Below are positions 1,703 through 18,500 of a stretch of 27,392 bases of DNA, one piece after another. A program made the translations under genes and the position numbers. Source of the stretch: a virus. The notes below the pieces were generated by a model. The model was given only the letters and a program-made list of their open reading frames with translations, ran no database searches and had not been told where the DNA came from. The stretch covers positions 1 to 27,392 of the IMG/VR virus record IMGVR_UViG_3300035228_000218. One strand, written 5' to 3'. How positions within the stretch are numbered: position 1 is the stretch's first letter; every line of letters starts with the position of its first letter.

Positions 1703-1732
1703 ACCATAGCACAGGTGTCAACCCACTGTCAA
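1703..1732 (-). promoter_or_regulatory. Putative sigma70-type promoter with duplicated TTGACA
   Basis: TTGACA (1732-1727) is followed after 18 bases by TATGGT (1708-1703), a weaker -10 box. A second perfect TTGACA (1721-1716) sits within the spacer, 11 bases downstream of the first. The site spans the 3' end of the gene at 1718-2581 and the short gap, pointing to the small-gene cluster. Less certain than the promoters at 195-223 and 1444-1472 because of the -10 box. Confidence 0.45.
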
Positions 1733-2581
1733 GTCATCAAATTCAGTAATCTTAACATGCCTCATGAACATGTCTACCAATTCTCCCTCTGCAGAAACAA
1801 TAAAGTCGATAGCAAATATACTTCTGTTAACACAAGTTTGATCAATGAATTGCTTTTGTTCTTCGCTGATTAGATCCGCTGATAACAATTTGTCAAGCAT
1901 GAGATTCTTTCTCAGTGGATTATCACACGTTTCATTCCATAACTTAGTCGTAGGATCACGCAGTAGTGTAACTGTAGGCATAAAAGGTTTGAAAGTATAT
2001 CTTAGGTCAGTAGAACCGTAGAATGTATCAATCTCACCCTTACAATCTCCTTTATATTTTTTGCAGAACTCATTGATATCATTTAATTTTTTATTCTGTG
2101 CATACTCTGCGAGATTATATCCAGGATCAAAGATCCTCATCCCAGTATAATTAGCATCTTTATCGTAATGAACACCAAGAATGTCAGTCTCTACATCCTC
2201 TGTTGCATCAGTTAATCTATCGATAGTAGTTTTACATGTATCCAGAGATTTAAATGCACAAAAGTTGACAAAATACTTCCAGATGCTTTCATTTGCAAAT
2301 CGAGTATACTTTATTGGATTTACCAAGTAGTAAGACTTTACTTCCGAGTCAACATATTCAATGCTAACAACTTTGTTATCATCATGTAGAGGTACTGATG
2401 CATTAGGAAATCTAAATTGCATAAACCTGTTAAGTTTAGCAGTGATGTTAGCATCAAAGTTAGGCAAATAAGAAGAATCTTTTAATCCAGTATATCTCCA
2501 TGGCATCCTTTCATATGTTGAAACATACTCAAAGCTGTTGAGATTATACTTATCCGCCTTGTAAAAAGTATCAGAAAACAT
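1718..2581 (-). CDS. Hypothetical protein (287 aa)
   Basis: ATG at 2581 starts one base after the stop of the upstream gene. The protein is soluble, tyrosine-, asparagine- and aspartate-rich, with at least six cysteines spread across the middle and C-terminal parts, but no CxxC pair arrangement that would mark a zinc finger. It has no signal peptide, membrane segment or catalytic motif I can identify. It has the AT-rich composition of the fibre block and lies at the end of the fibre/dioxygenase operon, so it may be co-expressed with the virion genes as a structural or fibre-accessory protein. This is inference from position only. Confidence 0.75.
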   Translation of the reverse strand: MFSDTFYKADKYNLNSFEYVSTYERMPWRYTGLKDSSYLPNFDANITAKLNRFMQFRFPNASVPLHDDNKVVSIEYVDSEVKSYYLVNPIKYTRFANESIWKYFVNFCAFKSLDTCKTTIDRLTDATEDVETDILGVHYDKDANYTGMRIFDPGYNLAEYAQNKKLNDINEFCKKYKGDCKGEIDTFYGSTDLRYTFKPFMPTVTLLRDPTTKLWNETCDNPLRKNLMLDKLLSADLISEEQKQFIDQTCVNRSIFAIDFIVSAEGELVDMFMRHVKITEFDDLTVG

Positions 2582-2582
2582 T

Positions 2583-2927
2583 TTAGTTAGATAAAATTGT
2601 TTGACCTAGTTCATTATATAATGTGAAGTGAATGTAGTTTTCAGGAATCGCACAAGATTCTTGACTGCCTGGAAAACTAGTCTCCAAAAATTCAATGGTA
2701 TCTTCAAGATTATCCACTTCAACAAAAACAAATTCTGAGTTTTGTAGAGATGCAAACATATCTGCTGGTAAGATGTCTTTATACAGTTGATATGAAGTGT
2801 TGATAGCATCTACATCAGAACTATTATTCCAACCATGAGATCTTAAATAAATTACACATTTACCCTTAGCAATAGCATATCGCTCAATAAAAGTGTCAAA
2901 ATAAAATACTTCGTAGTCTGAGTTCAT
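2583..2927 (-). CDS. Hypothetical protein (114 aa), translationally coupled to a dioxygenase
   Basis: The ATG (2927-2925) overlaps the TGA of the upstream dioxygenase gene (2926-2924) as ATGA, typical of coupled translation. The product has the layout of a small alpha/beta protein: EFVFVEVDNLEDTIEFLETSFPGSQ followed by YIHFTLYNELGQ near the C-terminus. This resembles small conserved cyanophage proteins of unknown function that I cannot name. No signal peptide, membrane segment or catalytic motif is apparent. Its coupling suggests a job linked to the dioxygenases or to the fibre genes upstream. Confidence 0.75.
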   Translation of the reverse strand: MNSDYEVFYFDTFIERYAIAKGKCVIYLRSHGWNNSSDVDAINTSYQLYKDILPADMFASLQNSEFVFVEVDNLEDTIEFLETSFPGSQESCAIPENYIHFTLYNELGQTILSN

Positions 2928-3448
2928 GAGTCTTTAAGTAGTAGTTTCCAAGCAATAGTGATACGTAGTCCAGCATATGATCTAGACGTAGGTTCTGCAG
3001 CATGTGGGATTATTCCGGGAAATAATATTGCCGCATTTGGTTTAGGAATATGAAAATATGTATCCTCTCCTAAATCAAATGCTGTTTTGCCTCCCCACTC
3101 TAATCTCCACATATCATTAGCGTAAAAAAGAAATGTTCTTCCTCTCTCATCATGCCAATCTTGATGAAAAGAACCTTGTGTGCCATAAGTATGACCATTG
3201 GCATACACATCATATAGTTCATAATGTTGTTGAGTCTTTTCCTCAATGATATTTAGAAGGTATTCTGAAAAGAAGTTATTGTCCTTAAAGTCTATGCGCC
3301 AAAAAGGCAAACCACGACGCTTATCTCCCTCAACATATGATCCATGACCAAAGTACCAATTAGGACCATGTACAAATGAAAGTATTTTCTTATAGTCTTC
3401 ATGCGAAAACATATCATTATAATTTACAATATCACTAGAACTATACAT
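2924..3448 (-). CDS. 2-oxoglutarate/Fe(II)-dependent dioxygenase (174 aa)
   Basis: The double-stranded beta-helix signature is present: HQD at residues 95-97 (the HxD iron ligands), then the distal His149 in FPGIIPHAAEP and Arg162 in LRITIAW for binding 2-oxoglutarate. The layout, with an N-terminal helix segment and FLFYANDMWRLEWGG between the HxD motif and the distal histidine, matches Fe2OG oxygenases of the prolyl-4-hydroxylase type. The substrate cannot be read from sequence. I start at ATG 3448, which overlaps the upstream gene by eight bases; a TTG at 3469 would add seven residues. It lies in a run with two more dioxygenases downstream of the fibre genes, and is likely a cytoplasmic hydroxylase made late in infection. 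Confidence 0.88.
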   Translation of the reverse strand: MYSSSDIVNYNDMFSHEDYKKILSFVHGPNWYFGHGSYVEGDKRRGLPFWRIDFKDNNFFSEYLLNIIEEKTQQHYELYDVYANGHTYGTQGSFHQDWHDERGRTFLFYANDMWRLEWGGKTAFDLGEDTYFHIPKPNAAILFPGIIPHAAEPTSRSYAGLRITIAWKLLLKDS

Positions 3449-3926
3449 GACATTCAATCCAACAAACAAAGACGTTTCTTCGACCAGCAGTTACTTCATT
3501 TACTCTATGAAGTAGATTACCTGAGTATATAATTGCTTTGCCTTTTGATAATTTAATACTATTAGTATTCTCTATCACCAATTCACCACCTTCATACTCA
3601 TCACTAAGGAAGCATGTCATACTATAATCTGGTCGGACACCACCACATGGATTAGAATCATAATGATCTCCATACCGTCCACCTACACCATACTTGACAA
3701 AGTATACTTGTGATATCTCTTTTATCTTGATGGGAAGATTAGATCTTGATATAATATCACGACAATATAAATTTAACTCCAGATTGCCTGGTCCATCATA
3801 TACTGTTTCACATACTTTACGAGCAGTAGGATTACTTACTTTACCATTATCAAACGTGAGGTAATTAAAATACTCATTAATAAAATTCAATTGCTCATCA
3901 TTTAGTAAATCAATTTCACAAATCAT
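3441..3926 (-). CDS. 2-oxoglutarate/Fe(II)-dependent dioxygenase, PiuC/PKHD-like (161 aa)
   Basis: A compact Fe2OG oxygenase. The iron ligands are His88 and Asp90 (DHYDSN) and the distal His140 (NLLHRVNEV); Arg150 in the following TAGRRNVF segment is placed to bind 2-oxoglutarate. The order HRVxxVTxGxR before a tryptophan-containing final strand is typical of the PiuC/PKHX branch. The FLSDEYEGGELVI stretch is also characteristic of that branch. The gene starts directly after the TAA of the upstream gene with a GAGGA Shine-Dalgarno. The catalytic set is complete, so it should be active; the substrate is unknown. Cyanomyoviruses commonly encode such enzymes. Confidence 0.92.
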   Translation of the reverse strand: MICEIDLLNDEQLNFINEYFNYLTFDNGKVSNPTARKVCETVYDGPGNLELNLYCRDIISRSNLPIKIKEISQVYFVKYGVGGRYGDHYDSNPCGGVRPDYSMTCFLSDEYEGGELVIENTNSIKLSKGKAIIYSGNLLHRVNEVTAGRRNVFVCWIECHV

Positions 3927-4880
3927 TTATTCCTCAGATACCAAATCAGAATCATTAACATAATATAGACTCCAATCAATAGGAACTATATCTTCAACAT
4001 TTAATAGTTTCATAATTTCAAGAACCGACTCTTTGACTTTCTTATGTTGAGTTCTGTATTGACCAGAGAAATTATACATGTTTTGTTCTCTGCTTTTAAC
4101 AAAGTCAGAAGAAGCACCATAATCATGCTTGACCCACTGTTTTGGATCGTTAACATCCATAAATGCAGGTGCATCAGTTACTTTATCTTCCAGTTTTCCA
4201 CCAGGGTAAATTGTTCTATAAATTTTAGGGTCTACAGGATACTTAATATCATAAGTATACTTAAAGAATGCTAAATTGTCATCAAAGTCTTCTGGACTTT
4301 TAAGAATGGAATTTCTAATATATCCTCTCCATGCAATCCACTCATCTTTCTGACCTTCATAATGATCTTCTACATCTGGTAAAATTCTCCAATCACTCAT
4401 AGACAAGAGATCATTCTTTTGTCTCTTTGCCTTCATATATCTCTGTTGAAAATACTGAGTAGAGTCATCAATTTTATCAATTTGTTCATAAATTTTTTCT
4501 TCCCTCACTACTAAAATAGATTCGTAAAATGTTTTAAACTTTTCGTTTAACTCTGCTGCCTGTTCTTTAGTAGCACTCTTGAATTGATATGTAGCCCAAT
4601 AGTTAGCGCCTGTAGAAAAATCATGCTTCAACTTTCTACGCTGACATCTATACAAACCATTGTTAAAATACTGGAAGTGATCTAATTGATCCTTCTCACT
4701 ATGCCAAAAAGGATCAATAACCCTCTCTAAAAATCTTTCTTTTAATGTGGCATCTAACTTGACGCGCTTTACTGCAGATTGACCATTGCCTTGAAGGTCA
4801 ACCGCAACATCAGGATTGAATAGAATATTATCGCTGAGTAAATCAACGTCTAATACTGAAATTTGTACAGATTCTGCCAT
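3927..4880 (-). CDS. Protein with phage tail-assembly-chaperone-like motif (317 aa)
   Basis: Residues about 151-190 contain SDWRILPDVE followed by QKDEWIAWRGYIRN. This matches the short Phage_tail_APC motif (DW..LPD......K..W..YR..LR) found in tail-fibre assembly and tail assembly chaperone-like proteins. The rest is hydrophilic and helical, with no signal peptide or membrane segment, and is much longer than the isolated motif, so the whole is not a standard small chaperone. It has a good AAGGAG ribosome-binding site at the ATG 4880 and lies between dioxygenase genes downstream of the fibre genes. A role in fibre maturation or as a virion component is inferred; the motif match is by eye. Confidence 0.75.
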   Translation of the reverse strand: MAESVQISVLDVDLLSDNILFNPDVAVDLQGNGQSAVKRVKLDATLKERFLERVIDPFWHSEKDQLDHFQYFNNGLYRCQRRKLKHDFSTGANYWATYQFKSATKEQAAELNEKFKTFYESILVVREEKIYEQIDKIDDSTQYFQQRYMKAKRQKNDLLSMSDWRILPDVEDHYEGQKDEWIAWRGYIRNSILKSPEDFDDNLAFFKYTYDIKYPVDPKIYRTIYPGGKLEDKVTDAPAFMDVNDPKQWVKHDYGASSDFVKSREQNMYNFSGQYRTQHKKVKESVLEIMKLLNVEDIVPIDWSLYYVNDSDLVSEE

Positions 4881-4888
4881 GGGTCTCC

Positions 4889-5551
4889 TTATTGAGCTTT
4901 AATATACCATCCTGTCAAGATGTATTTATTCTTAGTAAAGACTGTATTGCCTTTATGAGTATGTGTGTAACCAGCAGGCCACATAACAACTGTGCCAGCA
5001 GTAGGTCTAATTCTTCTCTTTTGGTAAAGAAATTCAGTTTCTGCCTCACCTTCTGGCATGTCATTCAAATAAATCATCCATACTATTTCACGCATAGCAT
5101 GTTGAATGCCAGTGTTTTCATAATGCCATAAATGATAACCACCACCCGGAGGAGTTATCTGTGCTTTAATATCAGTTGAAATCAAAGGAATTCTTGCAAG
5201 AGCACCATAGTGTGATGTATAATGCGAAATACATGAATTTAAAACTGCCTGTACCTCAATCTCAAGATTTCTATTAGCGTAATTTAAGCAAAATGCAAAA
5301 TCTTTTCTATTTAATTCACCACCATAAATTTCTTTAGACTTATAAACAGGTGCATCATCACATGATTCGTTATCCAAGTAATTACTTGGATACGAACCCG
5401 TATCTAGGACATGATCACTGTACTTAATAATTCTATTACACAATGGTTGTGGAACGAAATTTTCCCAAACAGCAACAAAATCATTGAACTCGGACTTGGT
5501 GAAATCACCTTTCTCCATTAACTCTAATGGACGATATGGTTCAACTGCCAT
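4889..5551 (-). CDS. 2-oxoglutarate/Fe(II)-dependent dioxygenase, HxE variant (220 aa)
   Basis: The core has PPGGGYHLWHYENTG, where His143-Tyr-Glu145 forms an HxE version of the usual HxD iron motif. The distal histidine is in GYTHTHKGN (His197 or His199), followed by KYILTGWY, where Lys209 is in the position that normally binds 2-oxoglutarate. YLNDMPEGEAETEF before the distal histidine is the usual strand of this fold. The protein is longer than the other two dioxygenases because of an N-terminal helical segment. ATG 5551 is seven bases after the stop of the large collar fibre gene. Substrate unknown; the position suggests a fibre or host-surface target. Confidence 0.9.
   Translation of the reverse strand: MAVEPYRPLELMEKGDFTKSEFNDFVAVWENFVPQPLCNRIIKYSDHVLDTGSYPSNYLDNESCDDAPVYKSKEIYGGELNRKDFAFCLNYANRNLEIEVQAVLNSCISHYTSHYGALARIPLISTDIKAQITPPGGGYHLWHYENTGIQHAMREIVWMIYLNDMPEGEAETEFLYQKRRIRPTAGTVVMWPAGYTHTHKGNTVFTKNKYILTGWYIKAQ
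4923..4930 (-). promoter_or_regulatory. Putative T4-type late promoter (AATAAATA)
   Basis: On the minus strand AATAAATA fits the NATAAATA late-promoter consensus reported for T4-like cyanophages. It lies in the last codons of the dioxygenase gene, 43-50 bases upstream of ATG 4880. It may give the chaperone-like gene and the genes after it their own late start. A single box in AT-rich DNA can occur by chance. Confidence 0.45.
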
Positions 5552-5558
5552 AATAAAA

Positions 5559-8500
5559 TCAGAATGCCTTAATGATATATTTAGTCTTGTGGAATGGATT
5601 GATAATAGGGACCTGTCTTTGAGGTCTCATAGTAATATCAGGAGTTGGTTTTTTAAAACTAGCGGAGAAATTAAATTCAGCATCAGTCATATCCATAAAA
5701 ATTTCAGATTGAGCAAACGAAACTTGTTTTGAAGTAGATGCTCCACCTAGTCCAGATCCAAATCCACCTCCAATTATACCAGCACCAGAAACATTACCAC
5801 CAGTAAAATCAGTATTCGGATTACCAACAACATCTCCAGTAATCATATGACTATGTGAATTTGTTTGACCAGAAGCAGGAATATATGAATCAATGGCAAA
5901 ACCTAATGGTCTAACATCAATGCAACCAGAAACATTGCCTCCAGTACCCTGAAGTGTTGCTCCAGCAAGTTCTCCTAGATCACTAATCCACCACACCATA
6001 TAACTTCCACTGACAGTAATATATGTCGTCACGTCGCCATTTGGTCCAGTTTTACTTGTTCCCATATAATCTTCAGCGAACGTTTTGAAGTCTGTCCAAT
6101 CTGCGCCAAGATATGCTTGCATTTCACTTGAGAAATTTGGATCTCTACCAGATATCCAATTAACCCAATTTTCAGCAACATGTTCCTGCTCTACTTCATT
6201 ACCACCAACTTCAATATTTGCTGCAAATTGTGTATCAGGATTTACATTCAAACCAAATAATGCTCTAACATTCCAAGGAATAACTGGATCACCAGATTCA
6301 CCATCAGGAGTAGCACTAACAAATTGATGTTCATGTACAGGAACTCTTGGTAAAACATCAGACAACGGACCTACTTGTGCAGATACAGATCCGGTGATAG
6401 TGAAAGGAACATCATCTACAATACTATTAAGATTATCTAATCTTACTGTCCCCAGAGAGAAAAATTGACTGCTCAATCCAGTTGTCCCAGTTCCCTCAAT
6501 CTGTTCCAGTGGATCAGATCCAGCAGTGTCAACTTTATCAAAATACCAATATCCACCTTCAGAACCAACATCAAAGATACCAGATCCAGTAGTTATTGGT
6601 AAGAAAGCAGAATTACCTCTGCTAGAATCAACTAATCCAACACCACACAATCTTCTATTTCTATAATCAGGAACTTTAAAAGATCCACTGAATATTGTCG
6701 TTTCATACGTGGTAGTAATAGTTTGTCCATTGACTACTGTAGGAGGAGTAGTTGTAGATTGCACAGACTCCACTACAGTTCCACCATATTGTGTTCCGAT
6801 TGCATTATATAAGTCTGTATATAAATTTGGATCTAAATCTCTACCATCACATTCAATAAATCCTGGATATCTAGCATCTAATCCACCAGCTGCGATTGTA
6901 CCGTCAAGATCACCATATCCAACAACGACATTTTCCTTTAGAATAGAAAGGACAGAACCAATTGGATAACCATCAAACTTTTGTGTCTTTTTACTATACC
7001 ACACACCAAGATTATCAGGTGCTGGAGGAACTGTCACGTAAGATTGAATCGACCACTGAAAAGAAACTGAAGGAATATTAGTTGCCTCTGTTCCAACAAT
7101 AACATCAGTAAATTCTATTGTTCCTAGTTGCTGAGGAGTAATAAGAACCAAGTAGAATGAAGTATTGACGGCAGGATCAAATGTTCTTGGTCCTACAACA
7201 GGTGTTGCTTCAGCATCTATACCAATTAAAGCACCATTTGTAGCAGTGATTGTAATTGGTCTATTGATACTGGTAACAGTGATAGGACTAGAAGAAATAT
7301 ATGTACCGGGAACTTGATTTACTTTATTTCCTGGTATATTAAACTGAGCATCATAATCTGGTCCAGTACTTGTTAAAATACTCCAAGATGGAATGTCTAG
7401 ATCACCAACACTAATCTGCATAGTGCGAGATCCAATACCACTACCATCAGAAAAGTCTGGTGATGATCGCATATAAAGTGTAATCCTATCACCATTCTGT
7501 ACTGATGTCGGGAAAGTACCTACTGATCCACTATTAACTTTAATTCTAACTTCTGTAGAGTCAGTAGACAATAAATTAACAGGAACTGATATACTTTGAC
7601 CTGTACCAGGATCTGTTCCAAGTCCAGTAATACCACCCAATGGCCTAGAATCAGAAGCAATCAATGCATCCTCAACAACATCAGATAGGGGTACATAAGA
7701 CCACCCATTGGGAGTTGATGATGGTGCGCTTCCAGTTGTTATTGTCCACATAGACAAACTAGCACCATCTCCAATAGAAAGAGTAGTATTATTTCCAGTC
7801 TGAGGATTAGATGATGTGGGAAGTTTTAACTGCAAATAATCACCATTGTTAACAGTTCCAATGCTACCACTAAATGTTACTCCATCAAGAACATTAAATC
7901 CTTCTCCATTAGTTGATGTTGTATCTACACTAGAAACTCCCCATTCACCATCACCATCTACAGATATATCTGCAGGACCGATTAAACCTTGGATTCTAAC
8001 TATATTACTATAAGCATCAATGTTTGTATCAAGTCCCACTAAATCAGTAAAAGAAGGAAATGGTTCAGGAATGTTTAGTGGAACAGATTTGCTTAAAATA
8101 TTCCATACTTCATTGGCAGTTCCAATATTAAGAGTAACTCTAGTAAATTGATTGTTAAAATTTTGAGTCTTGCCTCTAATTTGAATCTTAGCACCATTTT
8201 CTACAGTTTCAGTTCCATCTCCCTGAATCCAACCAGTATCGTATGTACCATCCCCATCATAATCAATCCGCATAGCAAAAACATCAATACCACCAGCAAC
8301 ATTGGCACCGATAGAAACTGCTGCCTGAGTAGTTGGTGTCAAACCACTAACTACTACAACCTCTTCACCACTACGCGATCCATCACCATAAGTAAAGAGA
8401 GTATCTAATTCAACATTATCAACATATGCTTGAAATGGAAATGGATCTGGCGTAAAATCTTCCGGAACTGTGGTAATAACCCAGTATTGAACAAGATCAC

Positions 8501-8615
8501 CAATTAAAATAGTAACAGTTTCGGAATAATCCCATATTGGAGGTGCCTTAAACCTAAACTGAACATAATCACCCTCAGAAACATACAACGGGGTGGTTGA
8601 GTGTGAATACGTCAT
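5559..8615 (-). CDS. Tail-collar fibre protein with N-terminal beta repeats (1018 aa)
   Basis: The N-terminal half has about four units of roughly 120 residues, each ending in a V.NG(D/A).(I/L/V).(L/I)......(T).(I/L).IG.....W.I.T pattern (starting near residues 12, 137, 255 and 372), probably beta-sandwich domains. Residues about 548-665 form a phage tail-collar domain, with PGFIECDGRDLD, LYNAIGTQYGG and FKVPDYRNRRLCG. Further on are histidine pairs (VHEHQF, NSHSHM) of the type that bind metal in T4 short-tail-fibre-like collars. The protein ends in YIIKAF, as two other fibre proteins here do almost exactly. A late-promoter box stands upstream at 8644-8651. Likely a trimeric tail fibre or tail-fibre-like virion protein. 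Confidence 0.9.
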   Translation of the reverse strand: MTYSHSTTPLYVSEGDYVQFRFKAPPIWDYSETVTILIGDLVQYWVITTVPEDFTPDPFPFQAYVDNVELDTLFTYGDGSRSGEEVVVVSGLTPTTQAAVSIGANVAGGIDVFAMRIDYDGDGTYDTGWIQGDGTETVENGAKIQIRGKTQNFNNQFTRVTLNIGTANEVWNILSKSVPLNIPEPFPSFTDLVGLDTNIDAYSNIVRIQGLIGPADISVDGDGEWGVSSVDTTSTNGEGFNVLDGVTFSGSIGTVNNGDYLQLKLPTSSNPQTGNNTTLSIGDGASLSMWTITTGSAPSSTPNGWSYVPLSDVVEDALIASDSRPLGGITGLGTDPGTGQSISVPVNLLSTDSTEVRIKVNSGSVGTFPTSVQNGDRITLYMRSSPDFSDGSGIGSRTMQISVGDLDIPSWSILTSTGPDYDAQFNIPGNKVNQVPGTYISSSPITVTSINRPITITATNGALIGIDAEATPVVGPRTFDPAVNTSFYLVLITPQQLGTIEFTDVIVGTEATNIPSVSFQWSIQSYVTVPPAPDNLGVWYSKKTQKFDGYPIGSVLSILKENVVVGYGDLDGTIAAGGLDARYPGFIECDGRDLDPNLYTDLYNAIGTQYGGTVVESVQSTTTPPTVVNGQTITTTYETTIFSGSFKVPDYRNRRLCGVGLVDSSRGNSAFLPITTGSGIFDVGSEGGYWYFDKVDTAGSDPLEQIEGTGTTGLSSQFFSLGTVRLDNLNSIVDDVPFTITGSVSAQVGPLSDVLPRVPVHEHQFVSATPDGESGDPVIPWNVRALFGLNVNPDTQFAANIEVGGNEVEQEHVAENWVNWISGRDPNFSSEMQAYLGADWTDFKTFAEDYMGTSKTGPNGDVTTYITVSGSYMVWWISDLGELAGATLQGTGGNVSGCIDVRPLGFAIDSYIPASGQTNSHSHMITGDVVGNPNTDFTGGNVSGAGIIGGGFGSGLGGASTSKQVSFAQSEIFMDMTDAEFNFSASFKKPTPDITMRPQRQVPIINPFHKTKYIIKAF
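7365..8580 (-). repeat. Four degenerate ~120-residue tandem repeats in the 1018-aa fibre
   Basis: Within the coding sequence the pattern V.NGD-I-L followed by IG-----W-I-T recurs at residues 12-49, 137-176, 255-294 and 372-417, a regular spacing of 117-125 residues. The repeats are visible only at protein level. A fifth, weaker unit may cover residues about 450-530. Confidence 0.6.
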
Positions 8616-8643: not shown

Positions 8644-8651
8644 TATTTATC
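8644..8651 (-). promoter_or_regulatory. Putative T4-type late promoter (GATAAATA)
   Basis: GATAAATA on the minus strand lies immediately after the stop of the 1012-aa adhesin gene and 29 bases upstream of ATG 8615. It matches the NATAAATA late box of T4-like cyanophages. It is located in one of the few non-coding gaps of the fibre block (36 bases), which supports function. Confidence 0.55.
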
Positions 8652-11600
8652 CTACTCATCTGAACCTGCCGGTGGTGGTGATCCTGTCTGTCTCAACTTT
8701 TTCCATTCCCCAGATTGATTAACATCTATCAAAATAGGCAGACTTGATTTAATTTCAACAGGAATATCTATGTCCTCAATTAGATAAAGATCAGATTCGA
8801 CAAGATCGTTTGGAGCAATATTAGGTGTATATACTGGTTCCTGATCCTTGAATAAACCATCAGTCTCATCTATATTAATATTATCTGGTTCTTCATCAAT
8901 CACAATTTCGATTCTCTTTGAACTTGTAGATGTTCCACCTTGTCCAGTAGCTGTTAAAATGTAATTTACAAATCTAGGTCCGAAGTCATCATATGTAATG
9001 TTAGTGTCAATATCATTTTCCTCAACTGTAGCTCCAGTACCACCTAATAGTGCAGTAGAAGAAGTTGTGTGTGAAGTACTTCCTTCTTCATTATTGTAAG
9101 TATTGTACTCATATACTTTCAGTATACTAATAGAAACATTAGCATAACTTACACTAAATGAAATTAATCCTTGTTCATCATAGTTTAAAGTCGATGGTAC
9201 TTCAAAAGAATCAATCGTAGGAATTTGATAAACTTCAAGAACAGCACAAGCAACTGGTGATGCTCCAGCTGGTCCATTAACATAAGCACAATATGTTGTA
9301 GTAGTTGCAGGACTTACTGGTTGATTACTACTTAGATTTCCATTACTAATACCACCAGATGTCCAAGTAATACTATTAGCGGTTCCAGTATAATACCATG
9401 ATAACTGTGCTACGCCACCTGCAATAATAGCAGGTACACTGACAGAGATATAAAAAATAGGAGGTATTAATACAGTAATAGTAACTGATGCTGAATATGA
9501 TCCAGCAGTAGATCCATAAGCAGATAAAGTGTAGGTTGTAGTACTAGTTGGATATACTGTAGCACTGCCACTGAAAATAAGTCCAGAATAATCCGTATAT
9601 CCTGATGTTGGTGCTTTAAACCCAGTATTGGGTCCATTACCAGTATATGGTCCTTCGCCACTAGGATTTGTCGTCCAAATTGTTCCAAATCCATTAGGAG
9701 GACCACCATTAGGATCAATTTTCTCGTAAATAGTTGTTGTACCTACAGGATGACCTGATGAATATCTTGGATATACGTATCCGATACTCGCATATGGTTT
9801 AACTCCACTTTCATTGTCATATCCAAAAAATGTACCTGGTGCCTGTGTAGTAAACGATTTGAATAGAGTGCCTTCCCGAGAATATCCACCAGGATTATAT
9901 GGAGAACACATGTGATCACCTGGAGCAGGAGATGTACTGAACCATCTGCTAATATTTTGCACACTATAAGTTGTTGCCGATCCAGATGAGGAAAGTGTTC
10001 CATAACCGCTAATTGATGCAGAAGTATATCCACCAGTCAAATACCAACTAAAAGATGCACCTTGTCCTTTAATGATTGTACTACTACTACCGAAAGATGC
10101 AGTCGCTTGCGTTGCTATAGTTCCAAAATCCTCATCTATGTTTGTAGATACCAAATCAGTAGTATTGGAAGAAACTTCAATTTCTTCTTCAGAAATTTCA
10201 ATTAAATTATCTAAATGTTCATTATTTTCCAAAAGTTCACTAGTACTACTTCCTTGTGGTGGAGGAGAACCATTTGTTCGTATATTTGACCATTGCCCAG
10301 ATTGATTAACATCTACTAAGATAGGTAGACTTGCCGTAATTTCAACGGGAATATCTATGGTATCAATTAAATAAAGATCAGATTCGACAATATCGTTTGG
10401 AGCAATATTAGGTGTATATACTGGTTCTTGATCTTTAAATAAACCATCAGTCTCATCAATGTTGATGTTATCCGGATTCTCATCAATAAAAATTTCTACT
10501 CGTTTTGATTGAGAAACAGATCCGCCTCCTCCCTGAATTGTCAGGATATAGTTTACAAATCTTGGACCAAAATTATTATATGTGATACTAGTGCTAAGAT
10601 TAGTTTCTTCGACTGTAGCATTAGGTCCGTTTAATTCAGCAGATCCAGAAGCTTCATATGAAGTCTCTCCTTGATCCGAATTGTAAGTATTGAACTCATA
10701 AATTTTTTGTATTTTTACAGAAATATTAGCATATTTTACTTTATAAGTAATAATTCCTTGCTCTCCATAATTAAGAGATACAGGAACCTCAAACTCTTCA
10801 ATTACTGGTAATTGATATACTGTAAGCGTAACTGATGCTGAAGGACTAGTTCCACCTAATCCAGTAGCATACGCTGAATATGTTGTAGTAGTTGCAGGAC
10901 ATACTTGTTGAGTACTGGTTACATTTCCATTACTAATATTGCCAGATGTCCAAATAACATTACTAGCATCTCCAGTTGTATACCAATCGAGTGTAGCACA
11001 AGCGCCAGCAATAATATATGATTGCGCTAAATTTATATACAGTACGGGCGGAATATAAACCGTAACTGTCGCAGTCCTATAAGTATTACCGCCTTCACCA
11101 CGAACATCAAAGAAATATGTTGTTGTACTAGTTGGACATACCTGTGTGTTACCACTCGCAGCAGATGATATGTTTGACATATTACGGTAGTAAATGTTAA
11201 CACCTGAAGAACTCCAAGTGAGTGTAGAACACTGTCCTCTAATAATTGTACTAGGACTTCTACTAATAGATACGTTTGGTGCTGGTGGTCGAGCTGGTGC
11301 ATCAATCGTGAAAGCAATGCCATATGGATTGCTACTAAAACTATCCGCTGATGGTGCATTATAAACACTACCACTTAAACTCTTAGTTCCTTGCGAAGCA
11401 TAAAATACAGTAGTACCTTGACCACCGTATCCAGATACGCTACAACCTCTACCATCAACAGTAAGAGATCCACTGTTATCAGCAGCTGCACGAATTACAT
11501 AGTTTCCACTCCAAGGAAAATATACATTACCGCTAAAATAGAATGTGGAACCATTATAAGCAGATCCAGGTCCACTATTAGGACCAGTAAATCTAACGGA

Positions 11601-11690
11601 GTAATTATTCATCAAAGAACCCCAAGCACCATTAGTGTAGTCTCCACCAATGCCTCCAGGTACATTTCTACTTGTGTAAATAATTGCCAC
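8652..11690 (-). CDS. Adhesin-like mosaic virion protein: PA14-like, Ig-like repeats, duplicated module (1012 aa)
   Basis: The start is GTG 11690, overlapping the TAG of the upstream gene by one base, with a GAGGA Shine-Dalgarno seven bases before it. Visible order: residues about 1-130, a PA14-like sugar-binding beta domain (AADNSGSLTVDG); Ig-like domains at 137-212 and 214-293 with the L-x-W and CP-x-TTTY pattern; a beta domain about 295-395; a C-module with FKDQEPVY and VNQSGQW at 400-475; an acidic linker 480-520; a third Ig-like domain (522-740) interrupted by about 125 foreign residues; then a second Ig/beta/C-module set (748-1012). No collar domain is present. Probably a fibre-tip or accessory adhesin with carbohydrate-binding potential. 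Confidence 0.82.
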   Translation of the reverse strand: MAIIYTSRNVPGGIGGDYTNGAWGSLMNNYSVRFTGPNSGPGSAYNGSTFYFSGNVYFPWSGNYVIRAAADNSGSLTVDGRGCSVSGYGGQGTTVFYASQGTKSLSGSVYNAPSADSFSSNPYGIAFTIDAPARPPAPNVSISRSPSTIIRGQCSTLTWSSSGVNIYYRNMSNISSAASGNTQVCPTSTTTYFFDVRGEGGNTYRTATVTVYIPPVLYINLAQSYIIAGACATLDWYTTGDASNVIWTSGNISNGNVTSTQQVCPATTTTYSAYATGLGGTSPSASVTLTVYQLPVIEEFEVPVSLNYGEQGIITYKVKYANISVKIQKIYEFNTYNSDQGETSYEASGSAELNGPNATVEETNLSTSITYNNFGPRFVNYILTIQGGGGSVSQSKRVEIFIDENPDNINIDETDGLFKDQEPVYTPNIAPNDIVESDLYLIDTIDIPVEITASLPILVDVNQSGQWSNIRTNGSPPPQGSSTSELLENNEHLDNLIEISEEEIEVSSNTTDLVSTNIDEDFGTIATQATASFGSSSTIIKGQGASFSWYLTGGYTSASISGYGTLSSSGSATTYSVQNISRWFSTSPAPGDHMCSPYNPGGYSREGTLFKSFTTQAPGTFFGYDNESGVKPYASIGYVYPRYSSGHPVGTTTIYEKIDPNGGPPNGFGTIWTTNPSGEGPYTGNGPNTGFKAPTSGYTDYSGLIFSGSATVYPTSTTTYTLSAYGSTAGSYSASVTITVLIPPIFYISVSVPAIIAGGVAQLSWYYTGTANSITWTSGGISNGNLSSNQPVSPATTTTYCAYVNGPAGASPVACAVLEVYQIPTIDSFEVPSTLNYDEQGLISFSVSYANVSISILKVYEYNTYNNEEGSTSHTTSSTALLGGTGATVEENDIDTNITYDDFGPRFVNYILTATGQGGTSTSSKRIEIVIDEEPDNINIDETDGLFKDQEPVYTPNIAPNDLVESDLYLIEDIDIPVEIKSSLPILIDVNQSGEWKKLRQTGSPPPAGSDE
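8709..9440 (-). repeat. Direct duplication inside the 1012-aa adhesin, copy 2
   Basis: Encodes the Ig-like domain, beta domain and C-module closest to the C-terminus. It pairs with 10296-11030, about 1.59 kb away. Conservation is strongest at 8794-8870, where I count 4 mismatches in 77 bases against 10381-10457; it falls off in the beta domain. This implies a fairly recent in-frame duplication or gene conversion. Confidence 0.8.
10296..11030 (-). repeat. Direct duplication inside the 1012-aa adhesin, copy 1
   Basis: Encodes the first Ig/beta/C-module set (residues about 220-465) and pairs with 8709-9440. The Ig part also shows similarity at DNA level, around 10870-11010 against 9285-9420, for example TATGTTGTAGTAGTTGCAGG in both. 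The neighbouring 565-aa gene has a third, more diverged protein-level copy of the same three-part unit. Confidence 0.8.
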
Positions 11691-13387
11691 TACATTTCCT
11701 CTACGTTTTGCCAGATCCCTGATTGATTTATATCAACTTTAACCTGTCGATTAGATTTTATAGAAACTGGAATGTCGATTCCATCAATCAAAAGTAATTC
11801 AGTTAAGATATCTGTATCTGGAGCAAATACCGGATCTTGATCTTTAAATGCATCATCAGTTTCTGGAATATCCAAATTTTCCGGAGTGATATCAATATTC
11901 ACTGGAATCACTACAGAATCATTAGCGACTCCACCTCTACCTGCAGCAGTTATTAGAACTGATACACTTTCAGGTCCAATGTTATTCCAAGCAATAGGAA
12001 CTTCAATTGATGGATTTGAAGATACAATAGTATCAGAATCTGGTCTTCCAGATTCCGCTGTAATTGCTGGATCAATGTTTATTGGAGTTCCGGTAGTATT
12101 TGTTCCATCAATATAGTAATATGTTGGTATAATAGTGATCGACACATCAGCATATTGAGTTTCAAATGAAACATTCAAAGTATCACCATAGTCAATTTCA
12201 AAAGGAGCTTCTATACTAGCAGTTGCAATGTAAAAAACATATACTGTCAAGTAAGCAATTTCGGATGTTCCTCCAAGTCCAGAAGCTTGGGCACTATAAT
12301 AGGTTGTTATTTGAGGAGTAAGTGTTACATTACTAGTCAAAAGTGTATTGTTTATATTTCCAGTCAACCAAACGAAGGTATCTGCATCTCCAGATGTTGA
12401 CCATGATAACGTTGTATTTGAACCTTTGATTATTTCCACAGATGTAGCAGTTAATGTAATCTCCGGACGAACGAGCATGTAAATTTTAACACTTCCCGCA
12501 ACACCAAATTGATAACCACCAGTTCCTCTTTGTCCAACTTCAACATTATGGGTTGTACCAGGAGCGTATGTTACAGAATCAACTAAATTTTGTCTCGTAA
12601 AATTAACTAAGGCACCGCCTCCGCCACCTCCTCCCTGACCTTGAGCACCTGCTTTTTGTCCACTAGCTTGGATACTAAAACCACGGACATATCCATTAAA
12701 TCCACCTCCTTGACAAAACCATGCTCTAAATCCACTACTGGTTTTATAAGCAATACCAGAATTATAATAAGGAGGGGCTCCGGTGCCACCACCAGCAGCC
12801 TGTTGAGCAACGTTGTAAATACTTATACTGTAATTACTACTAGTAAAAGCATTGTTGAAATAGATAACATAATGTTTTAGTGATGTACTATTTGAACAGG
12901 ATACTCCATCTGCTGCACCAGATCCAGCGTAATAAACTTGAATGTCAGAGCTATAACTACGAAATGTATGTTGGTTAGTGGTATTATTAAATGAATGTGA
13001 AACGTATGAATTATATACATACGTACCAGGATTTCCTGGTCCACCATCACCAGATCTTGAACCACCAATAGTAGGTCCATATCCTAGGGATGGTAAACCT
13101 CCAGAACTTCCATTGTATGTACTAACAGAAACTCCGTAGTTAGACCAGTTAAATACCGATGATCCACTTCCGCCTCCACCACCTCCAGGGATTCTACCAG
13201 CAGTGCCACCAGTTGCTTTTATTCCTAAAAATTGTGTATCTCCACCGTCAGTTCCAGAAGTTCTGGTAAAAGATGCATTTACATTTTCTCCAGCACCTCC
13301 ACCACCCCATAACCTGAGTTGTAATTCAGCTACATTAATCGGAATAGTAAAACTCTGTCCGTCAGATAGTGTTGTTGAAATTGGCAT
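11690..13387 (-). CDS. Glycine-rich adhesin-like protein with Ig-like and C-module domains (565 aa)
   Basis: Residues 20-35 (LQLRLWGGGGAGEN) and the glycine runs at about 67-73 and 250-258 are typical of phage glycine-rich adhesin domains, closed by VEVGQRGTGG...AGSVKIYML near 300. A non-glycine-rich segment (about 130-243) is inserted in this domain. An Ig-like domain follows (about 307-385, LSWSTSGDADTFVWLTG, then ITTYYSAQASG), then a beta domain, then a C-terminal module with FKDQDPVF, IDGIDIPVSIKS and DINQSGIW (495-565), homologous to the two copies in the next gene. Starts at ATG 13387, one base after the stop of the collar protein. Likely a receptor-binding or fibre-tip protein; glycine-rich adhesins do this in some T4-like phages, but the target here is unknown. 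Confidence 0.8.
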   Translation of the reverse strand: MPISTTLSDGQSFTIPINVAELQLRLWGGGGAGENVNASFTRTSGTDGGDTQFLGIKATGGTAGRIPGGGGGGSGSSVFNWSNYGVSVSTYNGSSGGLPSLGYGPTIGGSRSGDGGPGNPGTYVYNSYVSHSFNNTTNQHTFRSYSSDIQVYYAGSGAADGVSCSNSTSLKHYVIYFNNAFTSSNYSISIYNVAQQAAGGGTGAPPYYNSGIAYKTSSGFRAWFCQGGGFNGYVRGFSIQASGQKAGAQGQGGGGGGGALVNFTRQNLVDSVTYAPGTTHNVEVGQRGTGGYQFGVAGSVKIYMLVRPEITLTATSVEIIKGSNTTLSWSTSGDADTFVWLTGNINNTLLTSNVTLTPQITTYYSAQASGLGGTSEIAYLTVYVFYIATASIEAPFEIDYGDTLNVSFETQYADVSITIIPTYYYIDGTNTTGTPINIDPAITAESGRPDSDTIVSSNPSIEVPIAWNNIGPESVSVLITAAGRGGVANDSVVIPVNIDITPENLDIPETDDAFKDQDPVFAPDTDILTELLLIDGIDIPVSIKSNRQVKVDINQSGIWQNVEEM

Positions 13388-13388
13388 G

Positions 13389-14276
13389 TTAGAACTTAAT
13401 AATATATTCTACTAACATAAAGGGTGTAACTAATTGATCCAATTTTTCGGTATCGTTAATATCTACGTCAACAAATGCAGAAACTTCACTCATATCAACC
13501 TGTTTTTCTGAATATTGATATTCAAAATTATGGGAATAAGTTGTTGGTCTAAGAATATTATGTGAGTGAACTGATTCTTGACCTGCTTGATTAGTGAAAC
13601 CCCACTCATGTCCAGCGCCACTATTACCAGTAAATCTACCAAAGTCCTTACCTCCAGTTCCACCTACTTTATGGTTAGTAGTATAATTTAGAAAATACTG
13701 AGATCCTTGGTGAGCATGCCCCTGAAAATTTTCAATCGTAAGAGTTTCTTCTGAAGTAGATCTTTCAATGGTATATCTAGGATTTCCAAACATTTGAATA
13801 CCACTTTGAGCATTTACCTGAACATTGCCAATATAGTTGGCAGAAATTCTATTTCCTGAGTTAGAAACAACCTCAATTTGTGGTCCAACTCTTGTGGTTG
13901 GACTAGATTCAGTTATTCCCCTGTCTATAGTAAAGTTGTTGTATATACCAGTTCCTCTTCCACCAATGATAACTTTAGAACCTAGATCTGGAAGTTGAAA
14001 TTGTCCCAAATCTCCTTCTGCTTCATCCGGTTCTCTAATAATAGCATTGTCTTTTCGGAACCTAGATCCAGAACCAACTCCAAGAACTTCTGATAGAGCA
14101 ATATAACTTTGAGCATTGAAGATCGATCCATCGCATCTAAGATATCCAGCTGGCAATTCCTTTTTAAACTGAACACTATTTGGGTCATTAACTGTTCCTA
14201 AACTGGGACTAGTGTGAATTAAGATAGTTCCTACCATCCCTCCATAGCGCGATCTTTCTTTTGTGTAATTTGCCAT
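13389..14276 (-). CDS. Tail-collar domain fibre protein (295 aa)
   Basis: A phage tail-collar domain occupies about residues 14-110: GTILIHTSP near the start, LPAGYLRCDGSIFNAQ, then FQLPDLGSKVIIGG. Downstream GHAHQGSQ and SVHSHN give HxH pairs of the type that coordinate metal in trimeric collar fibres. The C-terminus is VEYIIKF, close to the endings of the 415- and 1018-aa collar proteins. ATG 14276 lies one base after the stop of the previous gene, with no clear Shine-Dalgarno sequence, suggesting coupled translation. It is probably a short tail fibre or baseplate-associated fibre of the virion. Confidence 0.88.
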   Translation of the reverse strand: MANYTKERSRYGGMVGTILIHTSPSLGTVNDPNSVQFKKELPAGYLRCDGSIFNAQSYIALSEVLGVGSGSRFRKDNAIIREPDEAEGDLGQFQLPDLGSKVIIGGRGTGIYNNFTIDRGITESSPTTRVGPQIEVVSNSGNRISANYIGNVQVNAQSGIQMFGNPRYTIERSTSEETLTIENFQGHAHQGSQYFLNYTTNHKVGGTGGKDFGRFTGNSGAGHEWGFTNQAGQESVHSHNILRPTTYSHNFEYQYSEKQVDMSEVSAFVDVDINDTEKLDQLVTPFMLVEYIIKF

Positions 14277-14277
14277 T

Positions 14278-15525
14278 TTAGTATGCTCGGATAATGTACA
14301 CTACAGTTAATGATGGTTGACTTGTATTCATATCTATTTGCAATGCCCCTACATTACTAGCATTATCGAGAGTTGTGTTTACTGGAATATTTACACTAGC
14401 AACTAATCTAGATTGTGGTTTTAAACTTGCTTGCTTGTATACAATTGCAAATGGTTCATGAGAATGTGCTTGAATACTACTATCCGTCCACCCAGATCCT
14501 TGATTACTGATCAAAGTTCCAAAAGTTCCTAAACTTGGACTATCTTGATAAAAATTTCTATATCCAACTGGGACTGAAATATTATTTCCATTTCTACCAT
14601 AAGCGATAGTAGCATCACTATCTAATTGATTATAAATCCATTGACCTTTACTAGCAATAGGAGATCTATCGAGTTGAAATGGAAAAAGGTTAACAGGAGG
14701 ATTTTCTGATGTCACTCCACCCACCACTCTTCCTGGTTGACCACTACCAAATCCAGTTCCTAAATTAGTCCAAGCAGAAAAATCGCTGCTGTTATTTCGC
14801 AGTGTTTCACCTTTATAAAATTGCTCATACTCAAAGTAAATTTCATCAATGAATCCATCAGACTCTGCTGGATTGCCAGTGTTATCCCAAGCACCGTGTG
14901 TCCAATCAATCTCAATATTGTCCCAAGGAATAGCTCCTATGCCTGGTTTAGTTGCAGGATTGGCGTTAATAGTTTCATAACTTCCACCATGACTATGTTG
15001 CCTGATGTGTGTATGACCTAACTTTCTTCCACCAATATACATGGTTTTTTCACCATCTCCAGGAATAATAGTATTTCCGGCAATGTTACCACTATATCCT
15101 AATCTATCATTTAAAGTGAATACAACATCAGTGTAAACATCAGTAAACACTGTTGGAGCAGCAGTATCTGTATTAACACCAATAAACGGTGCTATAATAT
15201 TTTTGGCGTCAGCATCATCATCAATAGTATTATTTTTAGTACCAAAATAAGTTTCTTCAATATCCATCAAAAATCTACCTTGATTTAAATTAGGTAGAAG
15301 AATATCGCCGTCATAATTTGGAAAAGAACCTCCAAAATTTGATGCGTTTGGATCTTGATTATACGTATCCCCAATTGCTTGCGCTAAAAGAGGAAATTGG
15401 TCTGCTTCGATAGCACTGCCATCACATAAAATCCATCCCTTAGGCACTTCACTAAGTGCCCCAGACCAAGGAGCGATGGTGCCCATCACCGCTGCCTTCA
15501 TAGTTTTTGTTTTCTGATAGAACAT
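14278..15525 (-). CDS. Tail-collar domain fibre protein (415 aa)
   Basis: The N-terminus carries a clear phage tail-collar domain: GTIAPWSGA, VPKGWILCDGSAIE, FPLLAQAIGDTY, and ILLPNLNQGRFLMDIEE (residues about 15-92). HTHIRQHSHGG and AHSHEPFAI are HxH pairs like those that bind metal in the T4 gp12-type collar. The protein ends in VYIIRAY. It starts four bases downstream of the giant gene stop at ATG 15525; an internal ATG at codon 9 is possible, but the packing supports the first. It is expected to trimerise as a tail fibre or short tail fibre-like virion protein. Confidence 0.9.
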   Translation of the reverse strand: MFYQKTKTMKAAVMGTIAPWSGALSEVPKGWILCDGSAIEADQFPLLAQAIGDTYNQDPNASNFGGSFPNYDGDILLPNLNQGRFLMDIEETYFGTKNNTIDDDADAKNIIAPFIGVNTDTAAPTVFTDVYTDVVFTLNDRLGYSGNIAGNTIIPGDGEKTMYIGGRKLGHTHIRQHSHGGSYETINANPATKPGIGAIPWDNIEIDWTHGAWDNTGNPAESDGFIDEIYFEYEQFYKGETLRNNSSDFSAWTNLGTGFGSGQPGRVVGGVTSENPPVNLFPFQLDRSPIASKGQWIYNQLDSDATIAYGRNGNNISVPVGYRNFYQDSPSLGTFGTLISNQGSGWTDSSIQAHSHEPFAIVYKQASLKPQSRLVASVNIPVNTTLDNASNVGALQIDMNTSQPSLTVVYIIRAY

Positions 15526-15529
15526 TTAA

Positions 15530-18500
15530 TTATACTTCGGTTAAGTACCAACCTGTTAAGGCAGACGGAACGCCAGAACCGCTTCCATCTGGATTTACGC
15601 CACCAGCATAAACTAATCCAAATGCCGCATTTGGTGTTTGAACGATTAGTTCTCCGCCATTATATCCCGCGAAGGATGAAGGAGAAACACCGCCAAGAGC
15701 AGCACTTCCTGTATTAGAAAGTTCATTCTGCACTTTAACATCATCTACTGCTCTAATAACGAGACTTAGATTATAACTTAGAGATCCACTAATATCTATA
15801 ATACGAATGGTATCTCCAATTAGAGGATTACCTGGCAATTTGAATAATGTATTACCTGTCGAGTTAACAAAGTAGTTAACATTAGATTCGGCAATAATGA
15901 CAGTATCACTTGAATGTACCCATTTAGCACCACCAGTTCTAGTAATGTAATTAGGAATCTGAGCAATTGTCATTCCTCCATCTTCTTCGACAGAGAACAT
16001 ATCCGCTCCACTGCTATTCTTAATAACAGTTCTTCTATCAATTTGATCACCACTAGAATCTCTATATTGGATATCCAATCCACCTGTAAAGATCTTAATA
16101 GATCCACCGAATTCAGAAGTTCCCGTTCCGAGAGCAGATAACTTACCAAAGACTGTCAAGTCTCCAGAAGAATTATCAAATATAAGTCTTGGAGAAGAAA
16201 GATCAGCATCACCAGTAGAAGAATCTGTACTAAAGAATCTCATTCCTCCTGTACTTAAGATGGTTCCAGTTGCAGTATCAATTTGGAAAGTAACAGACTC
16301 ACTAACCTCAGAATTACCGCCATTAGTGAGAGTTAGGAACTCTGTATTACCTTGTGGAGTTAACTTAAACAGTTCACCATCTTGAGCAGCAAAAGTCGAT
16401 CCTCTTAACGTAATAGTATTGTTTGTAGTTAGAGTTCCAGCAATGTCAGTATTACCAGTGTTAGAATCAACAGTAAACTTATTGAATCCAGATCCGGCAA
16501 GGATATCACCGAAGATGTAAGTATCACCAGTAGTAGATTCTACTTTGAATACTTCAGCAGCGGGTGATCCACCATCATTAACACTCAAGGATTGTGGAGA
16601 AGTGCTGATTAGTTCTTTGACACTTACAAATTCAGATGAAGATAACCTCATGAAATCTCTAGTGGAAATAGTTCCACCAAATTCAGCAACCCCAATTCTT
16701 GCATCAGCAGAAGTAGCAGGAATTCCATTTTCTGGAACATCAATCAGATCGTCAAAGTCAAGGTCAGAACCAGTAATATAAGAAGCATTTGACTGCTTAA
16801 CTAGTTTGGCAATAACACAACCATCTGGATGATTGAGGTATGTTCCTGTTCCTTCTTGACCTCTACCAACAATTAATCTATAACCATTTGGATCAGAAGG
16901 GTTTGCAACGTTAGCAAGACCAATAACACGAACAATTTCGCTCTCTGCCTCATTTCTCAAACCTGTTAGTTGGTTTGGAGCAACACCAACAATATCAGGA
17001 GAAGTAGGATCTGCTCTATCAATTAAGAGAAGATCACCAACTTGGAAATCAGTAATAGTTGGTGTTGTAATTGGTAGAACATATGATTGACCAGCATCAT
17101 TAGTTCCATTTACTTGGAATGTAAGGTCTCCACCACCAACTCCACCACCAAGTTGATCATTAGTAATTGTAATAGTTTCATTATCAATATATCCAGAACC
17201 AGGAGACTCAACAGAAATGTCAATTGTATTATCAAATCTAACAATAACAGTAAATGTAGCACCAACACCAATACCGTCAGAAGTAGCAGTCAAGAACGAA
17301 TATGTCGCTGCTGGTCTAAACGTAGCGCCAGTATTAATAATATTATCAATCGATGCAATTTGTCCGCCTGCTAACAAGAAGGAATTAGAACCCCATGCAG
17401 CAACACCACCAGTATCAATAAACTTACCAGTAGATTCATATTTGTAAAAATCGATATTTGGATTTTCTACACCACCAACATTATGAGCAACGATAGTCGT
17501 TCCAAACCTACCTCTTACAATTTCAATAATACCAGCGTTCAAACCACCGTCTAATCTGATATTACCTTCAACAATTGTTGAAGCAAGAACGTTCAGGGTG
17601 TTTCTGATAATGGTAGAACCACCAGTTGAACCCATGGTGAACGTAGTTGCGTTAAGAGCAAGATTAACTGTGTTAGTTTGATCTCCATCAAATAGATTGA
17701 CAGTTCTAGTTTGAGTGAACAATCTAGAAGTGCTTGTTCCAGCACCATATCGTGTGCCAATTTCAAGTTCACCAGCAATTAAAGTCTGTCTGGTTCCAAT
17801 TTCAGTAAAGGATGCGGTATTGCCCCATGCTCCACCAAGAGTAATTTCACACTTATTAGTAACATCATCACTAACACTAGCAATATCAACTACAGCATCA
17901 GTAGAATTTCTATGAAGTCTTAAAGTTGTTGTTGTTGCAGCATTACCAATCTGAATCGTTTGGTTAGGGGAAGAGTTAGCAATGTTAATACTTTGAGCAA
18001 CAGTTGTGTTGTTCAAGAAGTTAAAGATCTGACCTTCACCTGCCCAGTTTAGAATATTTGCATTCTGTGGGACAAAGTTGAATGTGTTATTTGTGGTGGT
18101 TAGATCACCACCATTAACTTGAATGTCAGAAGTAAATTCAACATCACCAGTAAATCTACCAGTACCAATAACGGTTAGAGTCTTATCTAAGTTGAATTGT
18201 GGGTTAACAGTATTTCCAACTGTAGTATTGATGCCAAGTCTACCACCATTTGTGGTCATGACACGAAGAGTTGCCGCGTCATCTATATTAGAACTATCAC
18301 CACCAACTAAGAAAGCATTATCTAGATCTGTTTCAGTCTTAACAACTGTAGTCTCATTCAAGTAGTCATTAATCTTCTTACCACTGATGAATGCATTACC
18401 TACAACATCTAGGTTTGCTCTTGGATCAGTTTCGGGAGAGACAAATCCATTCTGAGATGCAATATGAGCAGAACGAGCAAGAGTGTTAATACCAACCTTG

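Follow-up and report, generated by a model that had tools for sequence, protein, structure and literature searches.

The window analysed here is the complete 27,392-nucleotide (nt) stretch of IMG/VR virus record IMGVR_UViG_3300035228_000218 (positions 1 to 27,392) and comes from the fibre region of a marine cyanomyovirus. Three genes for 2-oxoglutarate (2OG)-Fe(II) oxygenases, here termed Ox3, Ox2, and Ox1, form a cassette in this region with a gene of a tail-assembly-chaperone family, and all genes discussed are on the minus strand. The order of transcription is a giant fibre, a short tail fibre, a collar protein, two fibre-like genes, a 1018-amino acid (aa) fibre, Ox3, the 317-aa chaperone-family protein, Ox2, Ox1, a 114-aa protein, and a 287-aa protein. 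Ox3 (4889..5551; 220 aa) is assigned as a prolyl 4-hydroxylase (P4H)-like enzyme from its match to PF13640 (3.8e-9), its predicted fold, and synteny. The chaperone-family gene (3927..4880) is followed by Ox2 (3441..3926; 161 aa; PF13640, 1.5e-12), a short form of the PKHD/PiuC-like enzymes, and by Ox1 (2924..3448; 174 aa from the ATG at 3448; PF13640, 1.2e-6). The 114-aa gene (2583..2927; phrog_4883, 1.1e-50) and the 287-aa gene (1718..2581; phrog_4851, 8.7e-48) have no assigned function; the former has an equivalent place in S-PM2, S-CAM4, and other phages, and the latter in S-PM2 and others. Neighbouring cassette genes overlap or lie apart by a few bases, so that the block reads as a single unit. 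An initial annotation, made from the letters of the window, had described three dioxygenase open reading frames (ORFs) of 174, 161, and 220 aa behind the fibre genes with a chaperone-motif protein, and the ORFs, Pfam, phrog_4697, and the tight packing bear this out.

All three enzymes pass the PF13640 gathering cut-off of 27 bits (Ox1, 29.8; Ox2, 48.7; Ox3, 37.8), and the iron ligands and 2OG-binding residue are kept throughout the orthologue alignments of Ox3, Ox2, and Ox1 (n = 15, 16, and 13, respectively). The catalytic residues are H143-x-E145, H199, and K209 in Ox3; H88-x-D90, H140, and R150 (K in P-SSM2) in Ox2; and H95-x-D97, H149, and an invariant R156/R162 in Ox1. The three are thereby confirmed as separate 2OG-Fe(II) oxygenases in which no catalytic residue is missing. 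Ox2 and Ox3 share 22% identity, and Ox1 is scarcely alignable to either. A FastTree phylogeny was built from the motif-complete 2OG proteins of 13 phages and the window (n = 125); it has many long branches, and only the three Ox groups and one further group (support 99) are used here. In it, all eight Ox2 proteins form one group (support 99), six Ox1 proteins fall in a group of nine (support 100), and eight Ox3 proteins fall in a group of ten (support 94); the other three and two members, respectively, come from different places. The three separate groups indicate old paralogues rather than recent duplicates, in agreement with the earlier judgement that these enzymes are too divergent for recent duplication.

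The predicted fold of Ox3 (AlphaFold2; mean predicted local distance difference test score 90.8) is nearest to those of protein prolyl hydroxylases. The best match is Pseudomonas putida P4H (4j25; Z 21.2, root-mean-square deviation 2.5, 176 aligned residues), followed by the P. putida P4H-EF-Tu complex (Z 20.8), HIF PHD2 (about 20), and PBCV-1 vCPH (19.9); all 50 of the fold matches listed are named prolyl hydroxylases (Z 18.5-21.2). A sequence profile of Ox3 likewise reaches Bacillus anthracis P4H (3.8e-7). The prolyl hydroxylases among these matches act on proline in proteins. An HxD iron motif is typical of P4H, and this was sought in Ox3; HxE was found instead, in 15 of 15 aligned orthologues, and E145 is invariant in a larger alignment of 54 sequences.

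The profile of Ox2 matches 3dkq (4.8e-40) and PiuC 9ghl (7.1e-36); the window copy matches NCBIfam PRK05467 (6.3e-27) and falls under the NCBIfam PiuC/YbiX equivalog cut-off (best 94.5 versus 143 bits). Matches of Ox1 in the PDB are weak (0.0047 to OGFOD1), and its family is called “DNA endonuclease V” by both PHROG (phrog_274) and RefSeq. All 13 Ox1 relatives searched against Pfam match PF13640; these searches returned 2OG families and one stray domain of unknown function only, with no nuclease or DNA-repair endonuclease family, and the name is therefore wrong. Its presence on Ox1-type genes spreads a false DNA-repair reading. The names “DNA endonuclease” (phrog_2297) and “ferrochelatase” (phrog_3531) also sit on 2OG oxygenase genes; the detailed check covers the Ox1 family.

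The 317-aa protein has a full-length hidden Markov model (HMM) match to phrog_4697, “tail assembly chaperone”, across residues 6-313 (1.5e-107). Pfam PF16778 (Phage_tail_APC) matches the window copy only marginally (12.2 bits versus a cut-off of 26.6; E 0.16), and it matches 8 of 18 family members at E<=0.01, the best at 2.5e-13. The protein has a core motif in common with PF16778 and PDB 2kz6 (7.2e-10). The whole fold has no PDB match at E<=0.001, and BFVD returns only the protein's own family at that threshold; because the predicted template modelling score is 0.54, no claim is made about the fold.

The order of these genes is kept across many cyanophages. Of 586 relatives of Ox3 and 363 of Ox1 in IMG/VR, the 80 best of each were taken and, together with loci L001 and L002, gave 152 loci; the 145 with a complete chaperone gene formed 78 clusters at 95% identity, and 7 loci were left out. 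A scan with the unaligned chaperone yielded two loci, and the chaperone of the L001 cluster is identical to the window copy. With unlabelled ORFs of <80 aa ignored, the fibre-Ox3-chaperone order is present in all 78 distinct loci, Ox2 comes next after the chaperone in 73 of the 78, and Ox1 next after Ox2 in 66 of the 69 with enough sequence. As this survey is limited to the closest relatives, it speaks for the orthologues and not for the superfamily. In phage records compared by eye on their coordinates, many of them isolates of the same species, Ox3 is directly upstream of the chaperone in 56 of 59 chaperone-bearing records; the remaining three belong to two isolates, S-WAM2 (two records) and Sf-FR1. 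The same order extends to the 114- and 287-aa genes in ACG-2014e, S-CAM4, ACG-2014i, and Syn1, and also in S-PM2 although its Ox3 is 48% identical; in general, the order is held where Ox3 orthologues share only 45-60% identity. Dioxygenase contents are nested (none, Ox3, Ox3 and Ox2, or all three). On a 64.5-kb contig with a 93% identical chaperone (G001), Ox3, Ox2, and Ox1 are the only PF13640 genes, and five loci (L214, L215, L276, L280, L281) have an extra Ox2-type gene between two fibre genes. This placement of dioxygenases and chaperone behind the fibre genes suggests that the fibres may be chemically modified while they are being built.

Putative late promoters precede both the last fibre gene and the chaperone gene. 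The cyanophage late promoter has been given as NATAAATA (PMC2984593). In the window, the motif GATAAATA (8644..8651) lies 29-36 nt upstream of the last fibre gene (5559..8615; 1018 aa with a Collar domain; phrog_4924, short tail fibre), and NATAAATA occurs close to this place in 42 of 64 IMG/VR loci, compared with 6 of 543 other genes; many of the other loci have CTAAATA. A CTAAATA at 5578..5584, in the 3' end of the last fibre gene and 27-33 nt before Ox3, is possibly a further late promoter or a mere product of the conserved peptide TKYI.

The motif before the chaperone gene is located within Ox3 itself. In the window, AATAAATA (4923..4930) coincides with the codons for Asn-Lys209-Tyr, 43-50 nt before the chaperone. 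Lys209 is the 2OG-binding lysine, and the Ox3 codons for Asp/Asn-Lys209-Tyr spell (G/A)AT AAA TA(T/C). Among 93 sequences (78 from IMG/VR, 14 from phages, and the window, including a few repeats), the motif is present in all, as NATAAATA in 91 and as CTAAATA in two, mostly 36-50 nt before the chaperone start. The Lys209 codon is AAA in all 93, whereas the equally invariant Lys129 is encoded by AAA in 52 and AAG in 41, and the codons neighbouring Lys209 vary freely. Elsewhere, Asp/Asn-Lys-Tyr carries the motif in 6 of 90 cases in the same loci and in 45 of 248 in 13 genomes, and none of four non-cassette dioxygenases with the tetrapeptide of Ox3 has it; a binomial P value for this comparison was set aside because the sequences are related. 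In the Ox3-free S-WAM2 and Sf-FR1, the embedded motif is replaced by a CTAAATA situated at the stop codon of the fibre gene. Given the motif inside Ox3, late expression like that of the fibre genes is expected for the chaperone, Ox2, and Ox1. Within 70 nt upstream, ATAAATA is found for 96 of 218 fibre-like ORFs, for 188 of 1543 others, and for only 1 of 122 2OG genes. On this motif evidence, the dioxygenases seem to be carried on the transcripts of fibre or chaperone genes. Promoter scans limited to intergenic regions or to a 10-bp overlap, as described in PMC3037559, would miss a motif embedded in this way.

Upstream of the last fibre gene, the window contains a giant fibre or virion protein that runs open at the window end (15530..27391; position homologous to S-PM2d218), a short tail fibre with a Collar domain (14278..15525; PF07484, 5e-12; phrog_4591), a tail collar protein (13389..14276; phrog_4714, 6.8e-127), and two ORFs of 565 and 1012 aa (8652..13387) that are fibre-like by composition, the 565-aa ORF matching phrog_9770, a virion structural protein.

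The wider dioxygenase superfamily is less closely tied to fibres than the cassette. Twenty whole phage records have 4-11 PF13640 genes apiece. A rotation test was made on 122 motif-complete 2OG genes in 13 whole genomes; of 153 HMM-positive genes, the 28 that lacked the motif pattern were excluded from the counts. A fibre-like ORF was no more than 5 kb away from 73 of the 122 (rotation mean 43.4, standard deviation 8.1), and at 0.1-1 kb P is 0.15-0.22. Once 19 cassette genes are removed, 54 of 103 are near fibres (P 0.006 at 5 kb, 0.054 at 3 kb, and 0.30 at 2 kb); in six cassette-free genomes the figure is 30 of 57 (P 0.018, 0.25, and 0.68 at the same distances). Three other definitions of a fibre, with the cassette excluded, give P of 0.13-0.50, and as a control 142 of 429 other genes of 150-250 aa are near fibres, with 153 expected. 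A general rule that cyanophage dioxygenases cluster at fibre genes was rejected, as the excess without the cassette is weak and depends on how fibres are defined.

Other dioxygenase arrangements were noted in individual phages. Dioxygenase runs were seen by eye behind the giant tail fibre of S-RSM4 (L055, 84000-102000) and behind SSM1_043 in S-SM1 (L053, 16000-42000), in both cases downstream of a tail-fibre gene other than that of the cassette. The further tree group with support 99 is directly upstream of a giant fibre gene in S-PM2 (155763-156344; L056), ACG-2014h (about 20175), and S-H9-1 (about 30970). In the fibre cluster of P-SSM2 (record 27121-28270; L054), the gene after that of a chaperone-motif protein encodes a dioxygenase of the piuC type that falls outside the Ox2 group, and this pair is possibly an independent version of the cassette pairing.

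In the reading that best fits these features, Ox3, Ox2, and Ox1 would be late-expressed protein hydroxylases that work with the adjoining chaperone on tail-fibre chains. The chaperone would keep the chains unfolded or guide their trimerisation, and hydroxylation would fall while the chains are still unfolded or being trimerised. The hydroxyl groups added, most likely on proline in the case of Ox3, would stabilise the fibre or anchor later decoration. This account of fibre hydroxylation during chaperone-assisted assembly is favoured tentatively, as the best of those considered though short of probable. The link to fibre assembly raised in the initial annotation gains from near-universal synteny, late-promoter motifs, and the P4H-like fold predicted for Ox3; the modification itself, with its protein substrate, its residue and chemistry, and its timing relative to folding, is what we infer from them.

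Several observations weigh against fibre hydroxylation. S-WAM2 and Sf-FR1 have none of the three enzymes at this place, although fibre and chaperone are retained. In seven cassette phages, the length of the last fibre ranges from 370 to 1406 aa, so that several fibre architectures are represented; for this reason, and because of the two dioxygenase-free isolates, the idea that a given enzyme goes with a particular fibre type finds no support. A search for a fibre motif or proline content specific to Ox-bearing phages found none, and C-termini are alike in fibres with and without Ox genes. As had already been noted for the window, collagen-like G-X-Y stretches are lacking: its six fibre ORFs have no run of >=4 units. 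The nearest fold to Ox3, P. putida P4H, was solved with EF-Tu and not with a fibre. Superfamily relatives are found in the uvsY-uvsW interval (S-SM1), between gp44 and gp62 (S-CAM8), near psbA (S-B64), and in the replication region of P-SSM2. Dioxygenases occurring independently of fibre genes had been named at the outset as a finding that would count against the idea, and this is half the case: other members of the superfamily, along with a few from the Ox1 and Ox3 groups, are located elsewhere, and Ox2 group members, within the FastTree set, solely in the cassette. Part of the gene order could also be maintained by the embedded promoter alone.

Pressed further, this last point becomes an explanation by linkage without shared function, in which the chaperone promoter inside Ox3 locks the order and the dioxygenases serve another purpose, for example the consumption of 2OG or action on a metabolite. 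The invariable presence of the embedded motif and the Ox1 and Ox3 group members found elsewhere are in keeping with it, as is a role in 2OG and nitrogen metabolism proposed by Sullivan 2010. Such a lock accounts for Ox3 alone, however, and not for the Ox2 and Ox1 genes that follow; the CTAAATA at the fibre stop codon of Ox3-free phages indicates that it is avoidable, and three different enzymes would make a strange 2OG sink. This explanation is judged unlikely. A rather unlikely variant retains late protein hydroxylases but gives them another target, a host or phage protein such as EF-Tu, the chaperone itself, or an envelope protein. The structure of P. putida P4H in complex with EF-Tu makes this conceivable, and late expression suits any late-acting enzyme, yet the fixed contact with fibre and chaperone-family genes and the dioxygenase genes between fibre genes would be left unexplained. 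A function in DNA repair or DNA modification, suggested by the “DNA endonuclease V” names and by earlier proposals, is very improbable. Weigele 2007 reportedly proposed a DNA repair role, and in S-SM1 a relative is flanked by uvsY and uvsW; against this stand the absence of AlkB, TET, and endonuclease V families from the Pfam matches, the protein prolyl hydroxylases that are the best matches of Ox3, the fibre linkage, and the late motifs.

Fibre hydroxylation during assembly may be extended by analogy. In procollagen, hydroxylation comes before the triple helix is formed, and the trimeric fibres of cyanophages could mature by a procollagen-like pathway in which up to three dedicated hydroxylases and a dedicated chaperone would act before trimerisation, their late promoters including one embedded in the active site of a hydroxylase; this extension is possible but doubtful. 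In the openly licensed PMC literature, no paper was found whose title or abstract dealt with hydroxylation of phage fibres (subscription papers, e.g., Mann 2005 and Weigele 2007, being outside its scope), and fibre hydroxylation as a programmed step of phage assembly is not described in the literature so searched. The cassette is a small, defined, and testable subset of phage dioxygenases with a concrete candidate substrate, the fibre chains handled by the adjacent chaperone. If the proposal is correct, the host-range proteins of phages would carry programmed hydroxylations that are missed by sequence-based host prediction and by work on recombinant fibres.

Components of the cassette have counterparts in known systems. 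The 317-aa protein shares with phage tail assembly chaperones (PF16778, phrog_4697) a conserved core around L159, D163-W164, D169, R185, R189, and P218; in contrast to them, the window copy is under the Pfam cut-off, and large extra domains flank the core. With prolyl 4-hydroxylases (P. putida P4H, PBCV-1 vCPH, B. anthracis P4H, and HIF PHD2), Ox3 is predicted to have a fold in common over almost all of its length, as well as the distal His and a basic 2OG-binding residue, yet identity is only 14-19%, the iron motif is HxE, and the gene sits in a phage fibre operon. Ox2 resembles the PKHD-type hydroxylases PiuC and YbiX by profile to 3dkq and 9ghl, but is shorter in the window, covering 7-176 of the 221 profile positions. 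A viral precedent is provided by the collagen-modifying hydroxylases of Mimivirus: unlike the phage fibre cassette, their substrates are collagens and the host is eukaryotic, and the likeness is that one virus encodes both a fibrous protein and the hydroxylases for it (PMC9546862).

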